Of a stretch of DNA of 64,000 nucleotides, positions 23,041 to 44,312 are shown piece after piece; position 1 is the stretch's first letter, and the number at the start of each line of letters is the position of its first letter. The position numbers and the translations under genes are program-made. The stretch is from Haloarcula sp. CBA1129. Lineage in GTDB: Archaea; Halobacteriota; Halobacteria; Halobacteriales; Haloarculaceae. Location of the stretch: the NCBI RefSeq assembly GCF_008729015.1, contig NZ_RKSM01000001.1, forward strand, positions 62,001 to 126,000, read 5' to 3'. The notes beneath the pieces are model-generated. The model worked only from the letters and a program-made list of their open reading frames with translations. It made no database searches and was not told where the DNA came from.

Positions 23041-23210
23041 ACAAACGTTGCTAACATACTCACGGAAGGCCTGTCGACTGATATACTTTCTCCCCGTGTC
23101 GGTTGTTGCAACACCCCTGAAACCGCAGTACAGCGCCCGAATTGGCCGGGGTTGTATCCCGGCAGTACCGCGTCGTCGGGTTTATCAAACCACCACACCC
23201 ACTGGGGAAT

Positions 23211-23777
23211 ATGCGTGGGTTCTACATCGGCCGCTTCCAGCCCTACCACAACGGCCATCACTCGATGGTCGAGCGCATCGCCGAGGAAGTCGATGAGCTC
23301 GTCTTGGGCATCGGAAGCGCCGACGATTCACACACCACACATGACCCCTTTACCGCCGGTGAGCGGATCATGATGATCACGAAGGCCGTCGCGGAGTACG
23401 ACCTGACGACCTATGTCGTGCCCCTTGAGGACATCAACCGCAACGCCGTCTGGGTGAGTCACGTCGAGAGTATGTGTCCGGACTTCGACGTGGCCTACTC
23501 GAACAACCCGCTTGTCGTCCGCCTGTTCGAGGAGGCCGGCATCGAGGTTCGCCAGTCGCCGATGTTCGACCGTGACCGGCTGGAGGGCAGCGAGATCCGC
23601 CAGCGGATGATCGACGACGAGTCGTGGCGCGACCGCGTCCCGTCGTCTGTCGTGGAGGTCATCGAGGAGATCCACGGCATCAAGCGGCTCCAGCACGTCT
23701 CGGACAGCGACTCGCTCGAACGGTACACCGCCGCCGACGAGTCGGTCGAGAAGTCTCTCGAAGACCTCGACGACTGA
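23211..23777 (+). CDS. nadM: Nicotinamide-nucleotide adenylyltransferase
   Basis: An archaeal-type NMN adenylyltransferase making NAD from NMN and ATP. The 188-residue protein begins MRGFYIGRFQPYHNGH, containing the (H/T)xGH nucleotidyltransferase motif. The second motif, near the C-terminus, is ISGTxIR-like (LEGSEIRQRM). Length matches the archaeal enzymes with a small acidic C-terminal extension. The ATG at 23211 is preferred because it begins the domain directly. Its stop shares one base with the start of the SAM hydrolase gene. Confidence 0.95.
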   Translation: MRGFYIGRFQPYHNGHHSMVERIAEEVDELVLGIGSADDSHTTHDPFTAGERIMMITKAVAEYDLTTYVVPLEDINRNAVWVSHVESMCPDFDVAYSNNPLVVRLFEEAGIEVRQSPMFDRDRLEGSEIRQRMIDDESWRDRVPSSVVEVIEEIHGIKRLQHVSDSDSLERYTAADESVEKSLEDLDD

Positions 23778-24553
23778 TGATTACGCTGAGTTCAGACTTC
23801 GGCTCTCCGTATCCCGCGGCGATGAAGGGTGTCATCTGTCAGGCGACGGACGCACGTATCGAGGATATCGCCCACGACTTTCCGCGACAGGATGTCAGGG
23901 CGGCGGCCTTCTGGCTCACGCAGACGCTCCCGTACTTCCCGCCGGCAGTCCACTGTGTGGTCGTTGACCCGGGCGTTGGGACCGACAGGGACGCGCTTGT
24001 GGTTCGCGCAGGCGAGCACGCGCTCGTGGGTCCCGACAACGGCGTCCTCCTGCCGGCCGCCCGCGAACTGGCCGAGAACGCAACCGGTGCAGCGGACACC
24101 TTCGAGGTGTTCACTTGGGCGTACGACGACCCGCCAAGTACGACGTTCCACGGACGGGACGTGTTTGCGCCAGCCGCGGCGGCCGTCCACGACACCGGCG
24201 TCGACGACATCGAAACACGGCCCGAAACTGACTCGACCGACGACTACGTCGACCTTCGGTTTCCGGCGGCCACAGTCGAGGGCGACAGAGCGACCGGTGA
24301 GATACTCGTCGTCGATGAGTTCGGGAACGCTGTGACGAACATTCCCGGTGAGGTACTCGCGGACCGGTTTGGGGACACAATCGGCGTTAGCGGGCATGAT
24401 GCTCCAGTCCGCCGCGCCTACGCCGCCGTCGATCAGGACCAGCGACTCGTGACCGTCGGCAGCCACGGGAACGTCGAACTCGCGGTCAATCGGGGTCGCG
24501 GCGACGAGGCGTTCGGTGTCAGTGCCGGCGACACAGTCACCATGTCACTGTGA
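23777..24553 (+). CDS. S-adenosyl-L-methionine hydrolase (adenosine-forming), DUF62 family
   Basis: This enzyme uses a hydroxide to cleave SAM into adenosine and methionine. The 258-residue protein shows the family motifs in order: TLSSDFG at the N-terminus, VVVDPGVGT, VGPDNGVL, TFHGRDVFAPAAA and VDEFGNAVTNIP. Its ATG overlaps the nadM stop by one base, giving translational coupling with NAD synthesis. The biological reason for destroying SAM is not established in this family. A T-rich stretch and the iron-type boxes follow. Confidence 0.92.
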   Translation: MITLSSDFGSPYPAAMKGVICQATDARIEDIAHDFPRQDVRAAAFWLTQTLPYFPPAVHCVVVDPGVGTDRDALVVRAGEHALVGPDNGVLLPAARELAENATGAADTFEVFTWAYDDPPSTTFHGRDVFAPAAAAVHDTGVDDIETRPETDSTDDYVDLRFPAATVEGDRATGEILVVDEFGNAVTNIPGEVLADRFGDTIGVSGHDAPVRRAYAAVDQDQRLVTVGSHGNVELAVNRGRGDEAFGVSAGDTVTMSL

Positions 24554-24574: not shown

Positions 24575-24588
24575 TTTAGGCTCGCCGA
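24575..24588 (+). promoter_or_regulatory. Upstream DtxR/IdeR-type palindromic box
   Basis: The sequence TTTAGGCTCGCCGA is an imperfect inverted repeat (TTAGGC/GCCgAA, one mismatch), spaced 35 bp before a second, better copy. Together the two flank the TATA region of the lipoprotein gene. It resembles binding sites of iron/manganese-dependent DtxR-family repressors; metal response is inferred from the motif. Confidence 0.55.
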
Positions 24589-24610
24589 AAAATCGGTGCT
24601 GTTAAGTCTT

Positions 24611-24624
24611 TTAGGCCTGCCTAA
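24611..24624 (+). promoter_or_regulatory. Proximal DtxR/IdeR-type palindromic box
   Basis: TTAGGCCTGCCTAA is a near-perfect inverted repeat (TTAGGC, CT, GCCTAA) ending 8 nt before the ATG at 24633. It would lie over the start of a leaderless transcript, ideal for repression. The same paired arrangement recurs at 27111-27161. Confidence 0.65.
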
Positions 24625-24632
24625 TCGATTGT

Positions 24633-27101
24633 ATGCCACAGAGACGTGATTTGCTGAAGACGGTGGGGATCGCTGCGACGGGACTCCTTGCTGGCTGTCC
24701 CGGGGTGGGGTCGTCCGACTCGAACACGGCGTCAGCGGATACCGAAGCAGCGACAGAACAGGTAACGGCTGCAGAAACCGACGATGGGGGCGAAAGCGGC
24801 GGTTCGGTCGGAGCGATGACCGCTGTCGCGACTGAGTGGAACGCCTACCGGGCGCGGCTGTACGACGCCGTCGCGCTGGGCCGGGCCGGTGTGCCCGGTG
24901 CAGGGGCGACCGTCGCACAGAATATTTTCGCTCGGTTCGAAGGTGCATCGGGTGAGTATGGGGCCCACGAACAGCTTGAATCCACGTCCGAATCGGCATA
25001 CGAGGGGTTCGAAGACGCACTCGGCGCTGTCCAGTCGTCGCTGTCCGAGGGGGACGTGTCGGGGGCCGCTTCGGCAGCAGACGAGGCGTCAGGCCACCTC
25101 CAGACCGCACAGCAGGCCGCTGCTGGACAGCAGGCTACCAGAGTGCTGGACCTGCTCTTGCTGGGCAGCCGAGCGAGTAACGCTGCCATGGCCGCGACGC
25201 TGGGCGCTTTTGAAGGGGCTGCCGCTATCGCGGAAGAGACGACGACCGCGTTCGAGGACGCGCTGGTCCACGACAGGCTGGAGGCGGCCGACAGCGAGGC
25301 GTACGAGGCCTTCGAAGGCGCACTGTCTGGTATCGGCTCCGCTGCGGGCAATGAAGACGGAAGCAGTGTCACCGAACAGGCTCGCGCCGCGCTCGATGCG
25401 ACTGTTTCGGGTGCGTACGCGCTAATCTCCGAGGAGGTAGTCGCCGGTGCGGGCCACCTCTCGACAATGCAGGCCCGCGGTTGGGACGCAGCCGCACTCG
25501 CCTCCGCTGGCGGTCCCGGACAGGCGTACGCGCACACGGTCACGCTGAACAGTTACCGTGCCCGCGTCGCCGATGCGGACTGGCTCGCTGCCAACGACGC
25601 GGCGGCTGCAGCGTCGACGGCCGTCGAGAACGTCTTCGCTCACTTCGAGGGAGCAAACGCACACGACGCGCTGGAGGAGGCCGACGGCGAGGCCTACGAA
25701 GCGTTCGAGGGCGGGCTGGAGGACCTCTCCGGTGCTATTGAGAACGGCAACGCGGACGGCATCGACAGCGCCATCGAAACGGTCGATACGAACCTCGTGA
25801 CGGGTATCGAAGCGCTGGTCGGCGGTGAGGACGCCCGCGCTGCGCTGGAGTCGGCGTTCTTCCGTGCCCGCATCGCGGACGCCCGCGAACTGTATCGCCT
25901 CGGCGACGCAGACAGCGCGGCAACGATTGTCTCGGACGTCTTCGCCCGCTTCGAGGAGAACGAACTCGGCTTCCACGAGACGATGGAGCACGAGAGCGAA
26001 GACCTCTACCACCGCTTCGAGGAGGAACACCTCACATCGCTCCAGTCGGCCTACGAGAACGACGACAGTGCGGCCGTGGCGACCCACCACGACGGAGTCC
26101 AGCAGGCGCTGCTTGACTTCGAAGGGGCGCTGTCGACGGCCGTCGCCAGCGGCGCGGAGGCGGACTACATGATCGGTCGGGCCTTCGACGCGGCTGGACT
26201 CGCAGCGCTGTCGGAGACCGACCGCGCGGCGACCGTCATTCAGGACACCTTCGCTCACTTCGAGAGCGGTGCGGCGGGCTTCCACGAGGCACTGGAAGAA
26301 GCCGACGAGGACACCTACGAGAGCTTCGAGGCGACGCTTGCGGATGTTCGCTCCGCCGCTGAGGACGGCGGCGACGTCACCGCCGCGGCAACGGCGTTCA
26401 ACGCCGAGGCCATCGCGGCAGCGTACGCCATCGCCGGGAGTGCTGGCGGCAACGGGGAGGCCGCGGCGGCAGTCATTCAGGATGTCTTCGCGACGTTCGA
26501 GGGGGCGAAAGTTCACGAGATGCTGGAGGAAGCGGACCACGACGCCTACGAGAACTTCGAGGCCGCGCTGAACGACTACTCGCAGGGGCTCACGGGCGGG
26601 GACGCGGACCCGACGGTGTTTGCGGACGCGACGCGAACCGCGCAGTTCGCCGTCGTCGGCGCTGTCGACAACGCTCCAAGCGGGTCCGCGGGCGACGGCG
26701 GCGAGGCGTCCGAGGAGACCGAATCGTCGCTTTCGGGTGGCCCGAACGTTGTCGAGGGCGTTCCCGACGACGCGGACCACGTCGTCGACATGGAGGCAGT
26801 GGCGTTCGCGCCCGAGGAACTCACCGTCAGCGTCGGCGACAAAGTCGCTTGGGAACACGTCGGCGGCGAAGCCCACTCAGTCACCGCCATCGAAGATGAC
26901 ATCCCGGAGGACGCGTCCTACTGGGCCTCCGGTGGATTCGAAAGCGAATCGGCCGCACGCGAGGGCTGGGAGAACGGAGACGGGGCTGTGCAGTCCGGCC
27001 AGAGCTACGTCCACACGTTCGAGACGGCCGGCGAGCACGGCTACGTCTGTATTCCGCACGAAGCCGCGGGGATGGTCGGCACCGTTATCGTCGAAGAGTA
27101 G
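24633..27101 (+). CDS. Tat lipoprotein with six FExxx-HExLEEAD repeats and C-terminal blue-copper domain (DUF5059/halocyanin type)
   Basis: An 822-residue secreted protein. A short Tat-like signal (MPQRRDLLKTVGIAATGLLAGC) ends in a lipobox, so it is anchored outside the membrane. Six repeats of a Phe-Glu/His-Glu motif begin near residues 97, 190, 333, 434, 537 and 616. The best copies read VFAHFEGANAHDALEEADGE, then AYEAFEG. The C-terminal domain from about residue 715 is a cupredoxin with a full type I copper site: His748, Cys806, His809 and Met814. The repeats are rich in conserved Glu and His and could bind metal. The tandem metal-repressor boxes upstream suggest a role in iron or copper handling or electron transfer. 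A T-run follows the stop. The detailed function is not known to me. Confidence 0.85.
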   Translation: MPQRRDLLKTVGIAATGLLAGCPGVGSSDSNTASADTEAATEQVTAAETDDGGESGGSVGAMTAVATEWNAYRARLYDAVALGRAGVPGAGATVAQNIFARFEGASGEYGAHEQLESTSESAYEGFEDALGAVQSSLSEGDVSGAASAADEASGHLQTAQQAAAGQQATRVLDLLLLGSRASNAAMAATLGAFEGAAAIAEETTTAFEDALVHDRLEAADSEAYEAFEGALSGIGSAAGNEDGSSVTEQARAALDATVSGAYALISEEVVAGAGHLSTMQARGWDAAALASAGGPGQAYAHTVTLNSYRARVADADWLAANDAAAAASTAVENVFAHFEGANAHDALEEADGEAYEAFEGGLEDLSGAIENGNADGIDSAIETVDTNLVTGIEALVGGEDARAALESAFFRARIADARELYRLGDADSAATIVSDVFARFEENELGFHETMEHESEDLYHRFEEEHLTSLQSAYENDDSAAVATHHDGVQQALLDFEGALSTAVASGAEADYMIGRAFDAAGLAALSETDRAATVIQDTFAHFESGAAGFHEALEEADEDTYESFEATLADVRSAAEDGGDVTAAATAFNAEAIAAAYAIAGSAGGNGEAAAAVIQDVFATFEGAKVHEMLEEADHDAYENFEAALNDYSQGLTGGDADPTVFADATRTAQFAVVGAVDNAPSGSAGDGGEASEETESSLSGGPNVVEGVPDDADHVVDMEAVAFAPEELTVSVGDKVAWEHVGGEAHSVTAIEDDIPEDASYWASGGFESESAAREGWENGDGAVQSGQSYVHTFETAGEHGYVCIPHEAAGMVGTVIVEE

Positions 27102-27110
27102 CGCCGCTAT

Positions 27111-27161
27111 TTTTTGGATAGCCTAAAAACCGATGCCTTTTTGTGTTTTAGGGTTACCTAA
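27111..27161 (+). promoter_or_regulatory. Second copy of the paired DtxR-type promoter
   Basis: Two palindromic boxes lie here, one around 27114-27127 (TTGGATAGCCTAAA) and TTAGGGTTACCTAA at 27148-27161, with 34-35 bp between them. The stretch 27110-27172 aligns without gaps to 24573-24635, about 46 of 63 bases identical, including the final TTGTATGCC that contains the start codon. It is clearly a duplicate of the lipoprotein promoter. Confidence 0.65.
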
Positions 27162-27169
27162 ATAATTGT

Positions 27170-27286
27170 ATGCCGGACGAACAGGCCACATCGAGGCGGG
27201 ACATCTGTCGCCGTAGCGAGTCGGGTACTGCCGTCCCTGTCGTCCGCGCAAACCCCGCCCGACGGGAGGTGAGAGTCTGGACGTGA
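27170..27286 (+). pseudogene. Short remnant of a Tat-exported protein behind the duplicate iron-type promoter
   Basis: From the ATG the frame gives only 38 residues: MPDEQATSRRDICRRSESG and then arginine-rich sequence to a stop. The start contains a twin-arginine (SRRDI) in the position expected of a Tat signal, but the hydrophobic core is missing. A single frame shift after SRRDI gives VAVASRVLPSLSSA, which looks more like the lost signal-peptide core and then stops. I read this as the decayed 5' end of a secreted metalloprotein gene, though a real short peptide cannot be excluded. The rest of 27287-27539 shows no convincing gene. Confidence 0.4.
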
Positions 27287-27539
27287 GCGTGTACTGACCT
27301 GTCAGCTTCGACCATCTTTCGCGGCGACGACCACCGTGGGCATAGCCCGTCGCCGCGCGCCACGAGTTTTTCGTGTCTGTCCCGTGGGCGTCTCGCCCCA
27401 AGGACGCCCCATTTCAGGTCCTTCGCCGTGGACCACGCTGGAACCACTGATTCTTGCCAGCCACTGGTGTCCGATGAGTCGACACTGGTGCTGGTATTTC
27501 GGGACAGGCGTTTTGGGTCCGCCAGCCTTGACACCGACT

Positions 27540-31256: not shown

Positions 31257-32780
31257 TCAGTCCGCCGTCGAGGCCGGGCGCTCCTGCGTCGTTTCGAACG
31301 GGCTGTCTTCGATGATGTCGCGGGCAGTGTGTTCGCCGCTGATGAGACACATCGGCATCCCGATGCCGGGCGTCGTGTAGGCCCCGGTGTAGTAGAGTCC
31401 GTCCAGCCCGGCGCGGTGGCCGGGGCGGAGAGGCCCGGTCTGGAACAACGTGTGGGCCAGCCCGAGCGCCGTTCCCTGCGGGTCGCCAAAGCGGTCGGCG
31501 AACTCGCTGACACACGCCGATTCCTCGACGACGGTACGGTCACGGAGGTCCACGCCGGTCTGCTCGGCGAGGTCGTCCAGTACGAACTCGCGGTACTCCT
31601 CGCGAATCTCGGGGCCGTCGTCCAGCCCCGGCGCAATGGGAACGAGGACGACGACGGCGTGGTGGCCATCGGGGGCGACCGTTTCGTCGGTCTTGGACGT
31701 GACTGAGAGGTAGTACGCCGGGTCGTCAGGCCACGCCGGGCGGTCGAATATCTGCTCGAAGTGGCCGTCCCAGTCTGTCGGCAGGACCAGCGAGTGGTGG
31801 GCCAGCGGGTCTACGTCGCCCTCGACACCGAGATACAGCATGAACGCCGACGGCGCGTAGGTTTGGTCGTCCCAGTACTCGGGGTTGTGGTCGCGCGCGG
31901 CCGGGTCGAGCAGATTCTGTTCGGTGTAGGCGGGGTTGGCGTTGCTGACGACGATGTCGGAGCCGACGACGCCGTCTTCGGTGGTCAGTTCGAACGCGCC
32001 TGCCTCGCCAGCGATGTGCTGGATCTCGGTCCCAGTCTGTACATCGACGCCGAGTTCCTGTGCCAGCGACCCGAGGCTATCGACGACGCCGGCGATGCCG
32101 CCCGCCGGGTAGAACACGTTCATGTTCAGGTCGACGTGGCTCATGATGCTGTACAGCGCCGGCGTGTTGTGAGGAGCGCCGCCGAGAAACACCAGCGTGT
32201 ATTCGAGCAACTGCCGGAGCTTCGGGTGGTCGATGTAGCGGCTGACGTAGTCGTCCATCGACCCGAACAGCCGCGCCCGCGGCGCGAGCGGGAGGAGGTT
32301 AGTGTCGACGTAGTCCCGCAACCGCTCGCGGCCCTCGTAGACGACCCGCTCCATCGCCAAGTCGTAGTTGCGCTCGGCGGTGTCGAGGTAGTCGGCCAGC
32401 GCGTCGCCGGCCCCCTCCTCGTAGGATTCGAACACCTCGCGGGCGTTCTCGCGGTTTGGCCGCATCGTCACGCGGTCGCCGTCCTTCCAGAACACCCGGT
32501 ACTGGGGGTCCAGCCGCTCCAGTTCGTAGTAGTCCGCGGGCTCGCGGTCGAAGTGGTCGAAGAAGCGCTCGAACACGTCGGGCATCAGGTACCACGACGG
32601 GCCGGTGTCGAACCGGAAGCCGTCGCGTTCGAGAACGCCCGCGTGGCCGCCGAGGCGGTCGTGGCGTTCGAGCAGTCGCACGTCGGCCCCGGCGTCGGCC
32701 AAGTAGCACGCAGCCGAGAGGCCGCCGAAGCCGCCGCCGACGACGGTCACCGTCCGGTCGCGAGGGAGGCCATCACGCAT
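31257..32780 (-). CDS. crtI: CrtI-family carotenoid desaturase/isomerase
   Basis: A 507-residue FAD enzyme. The N-terminal Rossmann motif is VVGGGFGGLSAACYLADAGA, followed by ERHDRLGGHAG. FDTGPSWYLMPDVF and FLGGAPHNTPALYS are typical of phytoene desaturase-like proteins, and the C-terminal FAD segment is YYTGAYTTPGIGMPMCLISG. In haloarchaea this family includes phytoene desaturase and the 3,4-desaturase of bacterioruberin synthesis, and I cannot separate these here. It is divergent from the Brp/Blh gene, so both carotenoid steps share a control region of 149 bp. Confidence 0.88.
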   Translation of the reverse strand: MRDGLPRDRTVTVVGGGFGGLSAACYLADAGADVRLLERHDRLGGHAGVLERDGFRFDTGPSWYLMPDVFERFFDHFDREPADYYELERLDPQYRVFWKDGDRVTMRPNRENAREVFESYEEGAGDALADYLDTAERNYDLAMERVVYEGRERLRDYVDTNLLPLAPRARLFGSMDDYVSRYIDHPKLRQLLEYTLVFLGGAPHNTPALYSIMSHVDLNMNVFYPAGGIAGVVDSLGSLAQELGVDVQTGTEIQHIAGEAGAFELTTEDGVVGSDIVVSNANPAYTEQNLLDPAARDHNPEYWDDQTYAPSAFMLYLGVEGDVDPLAHHSLVLPTDWDGHFEQIFDRPAWPDDPAYYLSVTSKTDETVAPDGHHAVVVLVPIAPGLDDGPEIREEYREFVLDDLAEQTGVDLRDRTVVEESACVSEFADRFGDPQGTALGLAHTLFQTGPLRPGHRAGLDGLYYTGAYTTPGIGMPMCLISGEHTARDIIEDSPFETTQERPASTAD

Positions 32781-32897
32781 ATCGACCGCTAGCGACTATG
32801 CCTGAAAAAGGGTTCCTCGGATTCTCAGGACTTCACAACAGACACCGTCATCATTAATTCACTGGGCCGTTCTCAGTTCGCTGGAATCGCTTGTTTC

Positions 32898-32907
32898 GTT
32901 TATACTG
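32898..32907 (+). promoter_or_regulatory. TATA box of the Brp/Blh gene
   Basis: GTTTATACTG lies 23-32 nt before the ATG at 32930, giving a leaderless transcript from the divergent carotenoid promoter region. Confidence 0.5.
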
Positions 32908-32929
32908 AGCTTTTCCCTAGCGTCGCCGT

Positions 32930-33994
32930 ATGCGAACAATCAGCTTGGGCTCCGTCTGGAACCGCCACCGGGACGCCGACCGTCATCCGTCGCTCTGGCT
33001 TTCGCGGGCGAGCCTGCTGGTACTCGCCGTCACCTTCGGTCTCCTCGGTGCTGTCGGCGTCAGGGTTCCGCTCCGGGCCCAGATGGTCGTGTACCTCGTC
33101 GGGATGGTCGCGCTCAACCTCCCGCATGGCGGCTACGAGCACTTCGAGAACCTCCGTCGCCGTCGTCCCGGATTTCGCTGGCGGTACGTCGCGGTGTATC
33201 TGGCGGCCATCGGCGGGTTCGTCGGCCTGTTCCTCGCCGCTCCCGTTGCAGGCCTCGCGCTGGCGCTGACCGTTGCCATGGCGAAGGGCGGCCTCGGCGG
33301 CCTACAGGTGCTGGAAGCGACGAGCGGCACCGAGCACCTGCAGACTCGGTTCCAGCGCTGGCTGGCGGCAGCCGTCCGCGGTGGGGCAGTGATGCTCGTC
33401 CCCATCGTGTTCTGGCCGGAGACGTTCCACGCGTTCAGTTCACTGATGGTCGGCCTCGTCGAACCCGGCGCGCTATCGCCGTACGCGGGCTCGTTCGACA
33501 CGACCCGGCTCGTCGTCGGGTCCGCCTACGGCCTCGCTTTGACGGCGCACATCCTGCTGGGATACGTGCGTGGCGGCAGCCGCGCTTGGCTCGTCGATGC
33601 GGGGGAGTCGGTGCTGCTGGCGGCCTATTTCGCGTTCGTTCCGGTCCTCGTCGCTGTCGGCCTGTACTTCCCGTTCTGGTACTCCGCCCGGCAGGTGGCG
33701 CGGACAGCGTCCGTGGAACAAGAACCAGTCGGCGACGAGCGCTGGGACCTGCTCGGCGGTGCGGAGCCCTCGACCGTCGCACTGCGGGCTTGGGTCGTCC
33801 TCGTCGTCGGGGCGCTGGCCACCTTCGGCGTCCTCGTCGCTGTCTACTGGGCGTTCCCGAACCCGCTTGGCACGAGCGACCTGCTCCCCGGCGCGGTGGC
33901 GTTCTGGAGCGTGTTTATCAGTATCGTCGCGCTACCCCACATCGTCGTCGGGTCGGTCCTCGACCGTGACCGGGGTATCTGGTACGTGCCGTGA
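32930..33994 (+). CDS. blh: Brp/Blh-family beta-carotene 15,15'-dioxygenase
   Basis: An integral membrane oxygenase that cleaves beta-carotene to two retinals, supplying rhodopsins. The 354-residue protein has about eight hydrophobic segments. Candidate iron-ligating His residues occur in NLPHGGYEHFENL, LTAHILLGYVRGG and the late LPHIVVGSVLDRDRG. Full length for the family. It is divergent from the CrtI-like gene. No rhodopsin gene is in this window. Confidence 0.87.
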   Translation: MRTISLGSVWNRHRDADRHPSLWLSRASLLVLAVTFGLLGAVGVRVPLRAQMVVYLVGMVALNLPHGGYEHFENLRRRRPGFRWRYVAVYLAAIGGFVGLFLAAPVAGLALALTVAMAKGGLGGLQVLEATSGTEHLQTRFQRWLAAAVRGGAVMLVPIVFWPETFHAFSSLMVGLVEPGALSPYAGSFDTTRLVVGSAYGLALTAHILLGYVRGGSRAWLVDAGESVLLAAYFAFVPVLVAVGLYFPFWYSARQVARTASVEQEPVGDERWDLLGGAEPSTVALRAWVVLVVGALATFGVLVAVYWAFPNPLGTSDLLPGAVAFWSVFISIVALPHIVVGSVLDRDRGIWYVP

Positions 33995-43906: not shown

Positions 43907-44312
43907 TGCTCAACCTGTAGCTAATGAGAGTCAAAAAGCCGTTGCCGAGAGTATCAACAGTGATACTAGAACAGTACAACCGTGTACAATTTAGAGTCTA
44001 GCTATCGGCAGTGTCCACAGAGGGCCTCTCTACAGAGGTGGCATCACAATGACTGACGTGCTAAATACTGTTCATGTCAGTTGAAATTGAGATGTTGGAA
44101 CACACTCGGCGAACCGTCGTCAGCTACAGCTAGCAGTTGGGGAAAGCCTCGGCACTCATAGGGCTCGTCACCAACGGGGAGTCACCCCGGTTCGGCCCCG
44201 TGAGTCGTCGTCATCGGCCGGCAGATGCTACTGCCGCCGGCGACAAGACGGTTACTCATCGGGGCCACACAGTAGAACAAACGCTAAACCAACGCGGGCC
44301 AACCAGTCATCT
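43907..44312. other. Intergenic region between divergent lipoprotein genes
   Basis: These 406 bases separate the divergent cosB and dsbA-like genes. No credible open frame, tRNA or repeat array is seen. It should contain both promoters: AT-richer stretches occur near 43935-43995 and near 44275-44295. The middle is unremarkable. Confidence 0.5.

Follow-up and report, generated by a model that had tools for sequence, protein, structure and literature searches.

The DUF5059–cupredoxin gene

The window (the whole 64 000-nucleotide stretch of DNA analysed here) contains, at positions 24633–27101 of the forward strand, a gene for an 822-residue Tat lipoprotein in which a DUF5059 region is followed by a cupredoxin domain. 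The position assigned to this open reading frame in the first-pass annotation is exact, and the description given there, a repeat-containing lipoprotein joined to a blue-copper domain and preceded by promoter boxes, is confirmed. DUF5059 (Pfam PF16502) occupies residues 64–682 and is matched over the complete model (positions 1–619 of 619; 892.8 bits against a cut-off of 25), and Copper-bind (PF00127) follows at residues 718–821 (E = 5e-15). The closest named homologues are from Haloarcula species (approximately 90% identity), and the host genome carries a single DUF5059 copy. About a quarter of the sampled genomes of the host order contain the family (96 of 392). Sampling 392 genomes across the phylum gave a match in 19, all 19 of them from the host order, and no match outside it. 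The earlier suggestion of an undescribed system has to be withdrawn, since the protein is a full-length member of DUF5059 and the gene already has a halocyanin name in Haloferax. Judged by its sequence, it is a member of a known family of unassigned function; the new findings concern how the gene is regulated and how its protein is built.

The gene stands alone. When the open reading frames surrounding the gene at 62 loci were clustered, no neighbouring family outside Haloarcula turned up in more than seven loci; a conserved operon partner or transporter was rejected on this result, and the gene is apparently transcribed as a unit of its own. By eye, the upstream open reading frames in the window (23142–23777 and 23624–24553) resemble ordinary housekeeping genes.

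Conservation was assessed in an alignment of 52 full-length homologues (the window protein, sequences from 29 loci and sequences from 22 further genomes). The N-terminal Tat signal with its lipobox covers residues 1–22 (24633–24698, forward strand). The twin arginines R4 and R5 and the lipobox residues G21 and C22 are present in all 52 sequences and A20 in 51, and TIGR01409 matches the signal weakly (E = 0.38). The proposal of an extracellular lipoprotein is supported.

Six helical repeats follow, all encoded on the forward strand. Repeat 1 (residues 65–164; 24825–25124) carries E103, H112, E116 and E127; repeat 3 (residues 296–395; 25518–25817) E339, H344, E348 and E359; repeat 5 (residues 502–604; 26136–26444) E544, H551, E555 and E566; and repeat 6 (residues 608–674; 26454–26654) E623, H628, E632 and E643. 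In these four repeats and in repeat 4 (residues 399–498; 25827–26126) the set consists of the Glu of an F-E motif, a His, a Glu four residues after the His and the Glu of a Y-x2-FE motif, each present in at least 51 of the 52 sequences. In repeat 4 the set is E441, H448, E452 and E463; E449, H466 and H485 are invariant residues additional to it, E463 and H466 form an ExxH motif, and this pair, E441, H448, E452 and H485 are each present in 52 of 52. Repeat 2 (residues 166–264; 25128–25424) looks intact in the window protein, but its His/Glu set is lost across the family. All 36 combinations of single-repeat profile HMMs and repeats gave matches in the window protein at a domain E value of 1.7e-9 or better. 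The first-pass annotation had described six repeats with shared His/Glu motifs at a spacing of about 100 residues; the six related repeats stand, but the motif is kept in only five because the set of repeat 2 is not conserved, and the F-E motifs, starting at residues 102, 207, 338, 440, 543 and 622, are 79–131 residues apart.

The AlphaFold model of residues 64–822 has a pLDDT of 91.4 and a pTM of 0.56; the relative placement of the domains is therefore uncertain. For repeats 4 and 5 modelled together the values are 97.0 and 0.91. In this model each repeat is a four-helix bundle (helices A, B, D and E) with an additional short helix C, and the conserved residues occupy the last part of helix B, helix C and the first part of helix D. 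A sequence comparison of repeats 4 and 5 with the PDB returned designed bundles, T4 lysozymes and single odd chains, all at E values of 0.02 or worse, and a Pfam scan of the two repeats in the 52 members gave nothing consistent beyond DUF5059.

The C-terminal cupredoxin domain (residues 718–821; 26784–27095, forward strand; PF00127) aligns with plastocyanin (PDB entry 2plt; Z = 14.4, r.m.s.d. of 1.0 for 91 residues). All 52 full-length homologues have every one of its type I copper ligands, H748, C806, H809 and M814, so that the complete copper site noted at the outset is upheld by both ligands and fold. Eight homologues are shorter (496–525 residues) and contain only R1-, R2- and R6-type repeats, as called for three of the eight, with the cupredoxin domain kept. 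Six of the eight (L032, L033, L034, L035, L037 and L038) form one clade with a support of 1.0, and in five of these six the axial Met is replaced by His or Gln. Natural members of the family thus differ in how many repeats they have and in how the copper is tuned.

Promoter boxes and their genomic context

The lasting companion of the DUF5059 gene is its promoter. Two DtxR-type boxes lie upstream on the forward strand, 35 bp apart: the distal box TTAGGCTCGCCGAA (24576–24589) and the proximal box TTAGGCCTGCCTAA (24611–24624), which is perfectly palindromic as an inverted repeat and lies 8 bp upstream of the ATG. They were compared across 62 distinct homologous genes (from 63 distinct proteins, of which the truncated L031 was left out; the eight short forms and two frame-disrupted genes are included). 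A proximal box of the TTAGGCNNGCCTAA type, with at most two of 12 positions mismatched and starting 14–22 bp before the start codon, is present in all 62, and a distal box (at most three of 12 mismatched, 33–37 bp above the proximal box) in 53. The nine genes that lack the distal box are those of L022, L027 and L029 and six of the short forms. The same test at random positions in the same loci gave three proximal and one distal match among 2980. Within the window alone, box-like matches show no enrichment over shuffled sequence (8 versus 9.2 expected); the evidence for the boxes lies in their position and conservation. On these grounds the DtxR-like boxes reported in the first-pass annotation are real, and the metal-linked regulation that they implied is supported by the contrast between the homologous genes and the random positions. 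Two homologues (L070 and L071) that are split over two frames, by pseudogene formation or sequencing error, keep both promoter boxes.

The host genome has 21 exact matches to TTAGGNNNNCCTAA, compared with none for a reversed-pattern control. Among the scanned proteins whose genes follow one of these boxes are five Peripla_BP_2 lipoproteins, one solute-binding protein of the SBP_bac type, an IucA/IucC-FhuF siderophore synthetase, a class III aminotransferase and a glutamine-synthetase-like protein. An FAD oxidoreductase reading frame approximately 85 bp from a box is less directly associated, one box precedes a gene of another kind (an RGP-family reading frame) and for some of the 21 matches no gene is assigned. 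The genome displays what is expected of a DtxR/Idr-type regulon, an operator-like inverted repeat at the promoter that is common to iron-acquisition genes, and the box is presumably the Idr/SirR/FerR operator of the haloarchaeal literature. Iron-type regulation of the DUF5059 gene is well supported by these sequence comparisons. At another locus (L092:3454–4003) an iron box precedes a reading frame that by eye seems to combine the Tat signal of a siderophore-binding lipoprotein with the C-terminal end of an oxidoreductase; it has no Pfam match and is possibly a deletion fusion.

A DtxR-type box alone does not distinguish iron from manganese, and with a blue-copper domain present the protein could act in the acquisition of copper or another metal, or in protection from it, at the cell surface, under DtxR-type control by that other metal. 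This reading is very unlikely given that in the same genome the same box precedes genes for siderophore synthesis and for Fe-siderophore binding. The published behaviour of the Haloferax orthologue, which moves with siderophore genes in the available parts of the sources, also argues against it. In Haloferax volcanii the DUF5059 gene HVO_1228 is among the ten most induced genes of an endA CRISPRi strain (log2 change of +4.2), seven of these ten being siderophore or Fe(III)-transport genes, according to the accessible text of PMC7714728. In the part of PMC9051519 available to us, HVO_1228 appears as the halocyanin hcpE with a value of -2.92, in the category 'Other' of a down-regulation table where iron genes are listed as well. 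In these two partial sources HVO_1228 co-varies with siderophore genes, which bears only indirectly on regulator binding and on de-repression at low iron. The consulted portions of two further papers name the H. mediterranei protein hcpG (PMC9240420) and mention HcpE only as a putative Tat lipoprotein (PMC6267482). HVO_1228 is not named in the main text of a Haloferax iron-starvation proteome, its table of more than tenfold changes included (PMC11349517), and the iron-gene table of PMC11218638 shows no such gene in the portion available. No proposal of an iron function for DUF5059 or HVO_1228 was found in the accessible parts of the literature on them.

The association with siderophore synthesis across genomes is loose. 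IucA/IucC is present in 41 of the 96 genomes with DUF5059 (55 are without it) and in 79 of the 296 others (Fisher p = 0.005, ignoring kinship), and a strict siderophore partnership was rejected on these counts.

A second tandem box pair lies directly after the gene (27113–27161, forward strand; boxes at 27113–27126 and 27148–27161, 35 bp apart). Under this second promoter is a conserved element (27170–27444, forward strand) consisting of a 38-codon leaderless reading frame with its ATG at 27170 and/or a small RNA. All eight of the other Haloarcula loci that were read (L002–L009) share the proximal box and the stretch downstream of it, L007 being strongly diverged and lacking a clear distal box; beyond the element, the following genes differ between Haloarcula species. 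The 38-codon reading frame has no Pfam match. An RNAalifold consensus of nine sequences of the element scores z = -4.1 against column shuffles, with compensatory changes in 11 of 77 pairs, mostly in one or two diverged rows, and with 56 of 693 cells broken; the fold of the single sequence is no better than shuffles (z = -0.68). A known RNA was rejected, there being no Rfam match at the gathering score and one chance hit at E = 0.94. The element may be an iron-regulated small RNA or a tiny gene. A similar unit occurs in the host genome at L088:3196–3245, where tandem exact boxes 36 bp apart precede an 85-codon leaderless reading frame with no Pfam match. Elsewhere in the window there is a C/D-box RNA, sR-tMet (44145–44219, reverse strand; Rfam RF02163, 67.4 bits), and at 31257–33994, by eye, a carotenoid-desaturase-like gene with a divergent membrane protein that is maybe a retinal-forming enzyme.

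Conserved residues and the proposed role

Side-chain orientation was estimated from helical wheels with family-averaged hydrophobicity, rather than from model coordinates. The invariant His residues lie on average 66° from the hydrophobic direction (seven of eight within 90°) and the invariant Tyr residues 65° (six of six). For the invariant Glu residues the mean is 112°, with two of 19 within 90°, compared with 112° and 21 of 73 for the non-invariant polar background. His and Glu taken together differ weakly from this background (p = 0.04), a difference that is carried by His. Helices D and E of repeat 4 show this more clearly, with H466, H485, Y459 and E463 at 6, 27, 14 and 47° from the hydrophobic direction. 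Outward-pointing His and Glu residues had been named beforehand as the observation that would speak against a buried cluster; the wheels gave a mixed answer, with most invariant His but few invariant Glu on the hydrophobic side. A shared His/Glu site is plausible in repeat 4 and conjectural in the other repeats.

The background-like positions of the Glu residues, together with an invariant Arg and Asp on helix A, allow a structural interpretation, in which the conserved His, Glu, Tyr and Phe cap the helix corner and lock it by pairing with the helix A Arg, and the repeats bind a ferric siderophore, a surface polymer or nothing. The invariant Glu residues could, for example, form salt bridges with the invariant Arg, and the EfeO relative Algp7 is reported in the available part of PMC3143127 to bind alginate. 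Each repeat has four to seven invariant residues of ligand type, however, and the promoter boxes are of the iron type, and we consider a purely structural role of these residues unlikely.

Another interpretation starts from the complete plastocyanin-type copper site and the annotation as a halocyanin, a haloarchaeal electron carrier. The protein would then be an iron-sparing carrier, a large membrane-tethered blue-copper protein that replaces or supplements iron proteins in electron transport, with the repeats as a spacer or docking scaffold; the iron boxes would fit any gene expressed at low iron. A spacer needs no invariant Glu/His sets, yet five repeats have them, and the fold does not require the set because repeat 2 has lost it and retains the same modelled fold. 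The change of the axial Met to His or Gln in five of six members of the short-form clade is also odd for a plain carrier, and this interpretation appears doubtful.

Because boxes of the iron-starvation type are kept in every relative examined, the DUF5059 protein is probably an unstudied iron-catching machine. The reading that we favour, with a rough probability of 0.5, is that the protein is induced by iron starvation, is anchored to the membrane, handles iron outside the cell and carries a copper redox module. It is consistent with the conserved boxes (62 of 62 and 53 of 62), the boxes of the siderophore genes, the co-variation of HVO_1228 with siderophore genes, the Glu/His/Glu/Glu sets, the confident two-repeat model, the ranking of EfeO in the Foldseek search described below and the full copper site. 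The Foldseek E value of 0.15 with its poor superposition, the VIA-align result, the EfeO profile probability of 7.8%, the background-like Glu wheel positions, the lack of a conserved neighbour or transporter, the 55 of 96 genomes without IucA/IucC and the absence of HVO_1228 from the proteome main text and from the consulted iron-gene table count against it.

From this iron-handling reading we infer metal binding and redox chemistry of the DUF5059 protein along the following lines. With plentiful iron, a DtxR-family repressor, presumably of the Idr/SirR type, would occupy both boxes at the core promoter; on iron shortage, the DUF5059 gene would be turned on together with the siderophore genes. 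The exported lipoprotein would display its four-helix bundles in a row, and in five of them the E...H..E...E set, at the corner where helix B and helix D meet the short helix C, may hold ions, putatively of iron. The blue copper centre at the C-terminus could then pass single electrons to or from the bundle iron, and the captured iron, set to the right redox state, might be taken up by an ABC importer as the presumed hand-over partner. In a more detailed version, which is quite unlikely as a whole, the system would be a siderophore-independent form of haloarchaeal iron capture without FTR1, in which repeat 4 (E441, H448, E452, E463-xx-H466 and H485) is a diiron-type oxidation site wired to blue copper in one polypeptide, repeats 1, 3, 5 and 6 store or relay iron, and tuning comes from the repeat number (six, or three in the short forms without repeat 4) and from whether the axial copper ligand is Met, His or Gln.

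If iron handling is correct, the protein would represent a second haloarchaeal iron-capture route beside siderophores, DUF5059 would gain a function, and the combination of a cupredoxin with helical metal-binding bundles would have taken another form in archaea. This large surface protein is present in 96 of 392 genomes of the order, yet FTR1 has a match over the cut-off in 0 of these 392 and M75/EfeO was found in 0 of 196 phylum genomes searched.

Comparison with EfeO and other known systems

The structural comparison with EfeO gives a mixed result. Among PDB chains compared with repeats 4 and 5 in Foldseek, EfeO ranks first and second (E = 0.15 and 0.18), Algp7 third and sixth and EfeM fifth; the E values of these ranks are between 0.15 and 1.2, none reaching 0.001, and the EfeO superposition is poor (r.m.s.d. 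of 11.6). VIA-align instead places unrelated single bundles first (best Z = 12.6, compared with the level of about 13 that is meaningful for helical bundles with this tool), with no EfeO among the best 50 matches. At E ≤ 5 the window protein has no match to M75 (PF09375). A profile comparison with 11 EfeO sequences, with a reversed-sequence control, did not show homology to M75, the best probability of 7.8% not being significant; the profile alignment falls on a GD-turn, not on the His motif. In the host genome the counts for FTR1 and M75 are both zero. Across the order, FTR1 has no match over the cut-off in 392 genomes and one weak match below it, and M75/EfeO was not found in the 196 phylum genomes searched.

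The DUF5059 protein resembles EfeO, EfeM and Algp7 in being extracytoplasmic, in joining a cupredoxin to pairs of four-helix bundles, in a conserved GxH...E on a short helix and in iron-linked regulation (PMC9174327 and PMC3143127, as far as their available text goes). E. coli EfeO has TGFHRLE where repeats 4 and 5 have GFHE..E; in these two repeats the motif sits on the short helix that links the second long helix to the third. The accessible parts of the same two papers describe HxxE/GxHxxE motifs in EfeM and imelysins, with a site formed between two bundles; in the imelysin PIBO a short helix carries the motif. Repeats 4 and 5 depart from the HxxE motif of EfeO/M75, the spacing from the His to the invariant Glu being four rather than three. 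There are six bundles rather than two, and the cupredoxin is C-terminal with a complete type I site, whereas the Cup domain of EfeO is N-terminal; the EfeU (FTR1) partner of the EfeO system is missing from the host order (0 of 392 over the cut-off). The EfeO likeness put forward in the first-pass annotation therefore survives as the weak precedence of EfeO, Algp7 and EfeM in Foldseek, but not as an M75 match, a shared domain order or an FTR1 partner, and the DUF5059 protein is perhaps EfeO-like in plan, although not shown to be EfeO.

With ferritin-like diiron proteins, repeat 4 shares an ExxH motif (E463–H466) and further invariant His and Glu residues; it differs in that the ExxH is single, and the window protein has no Pfam match to such families. 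The C-terminal domain has the fold and all four copper ligands of halocyanin, plastocyanin and amicyanin, from which the protein differs in carrying 600 residues of repeats and in scoring 37.9 bits against the cut-off of 93.8 for the NCBIfam halocyanin model TIGR03102. The closest correspondence is with the DUF5059 halocyanin-like proteins such as HVO_1228 (hcpE), with which the window protein shares the full 619-position model plus Copper-bind; nothing sets it apart from them, and it is a member of that family.
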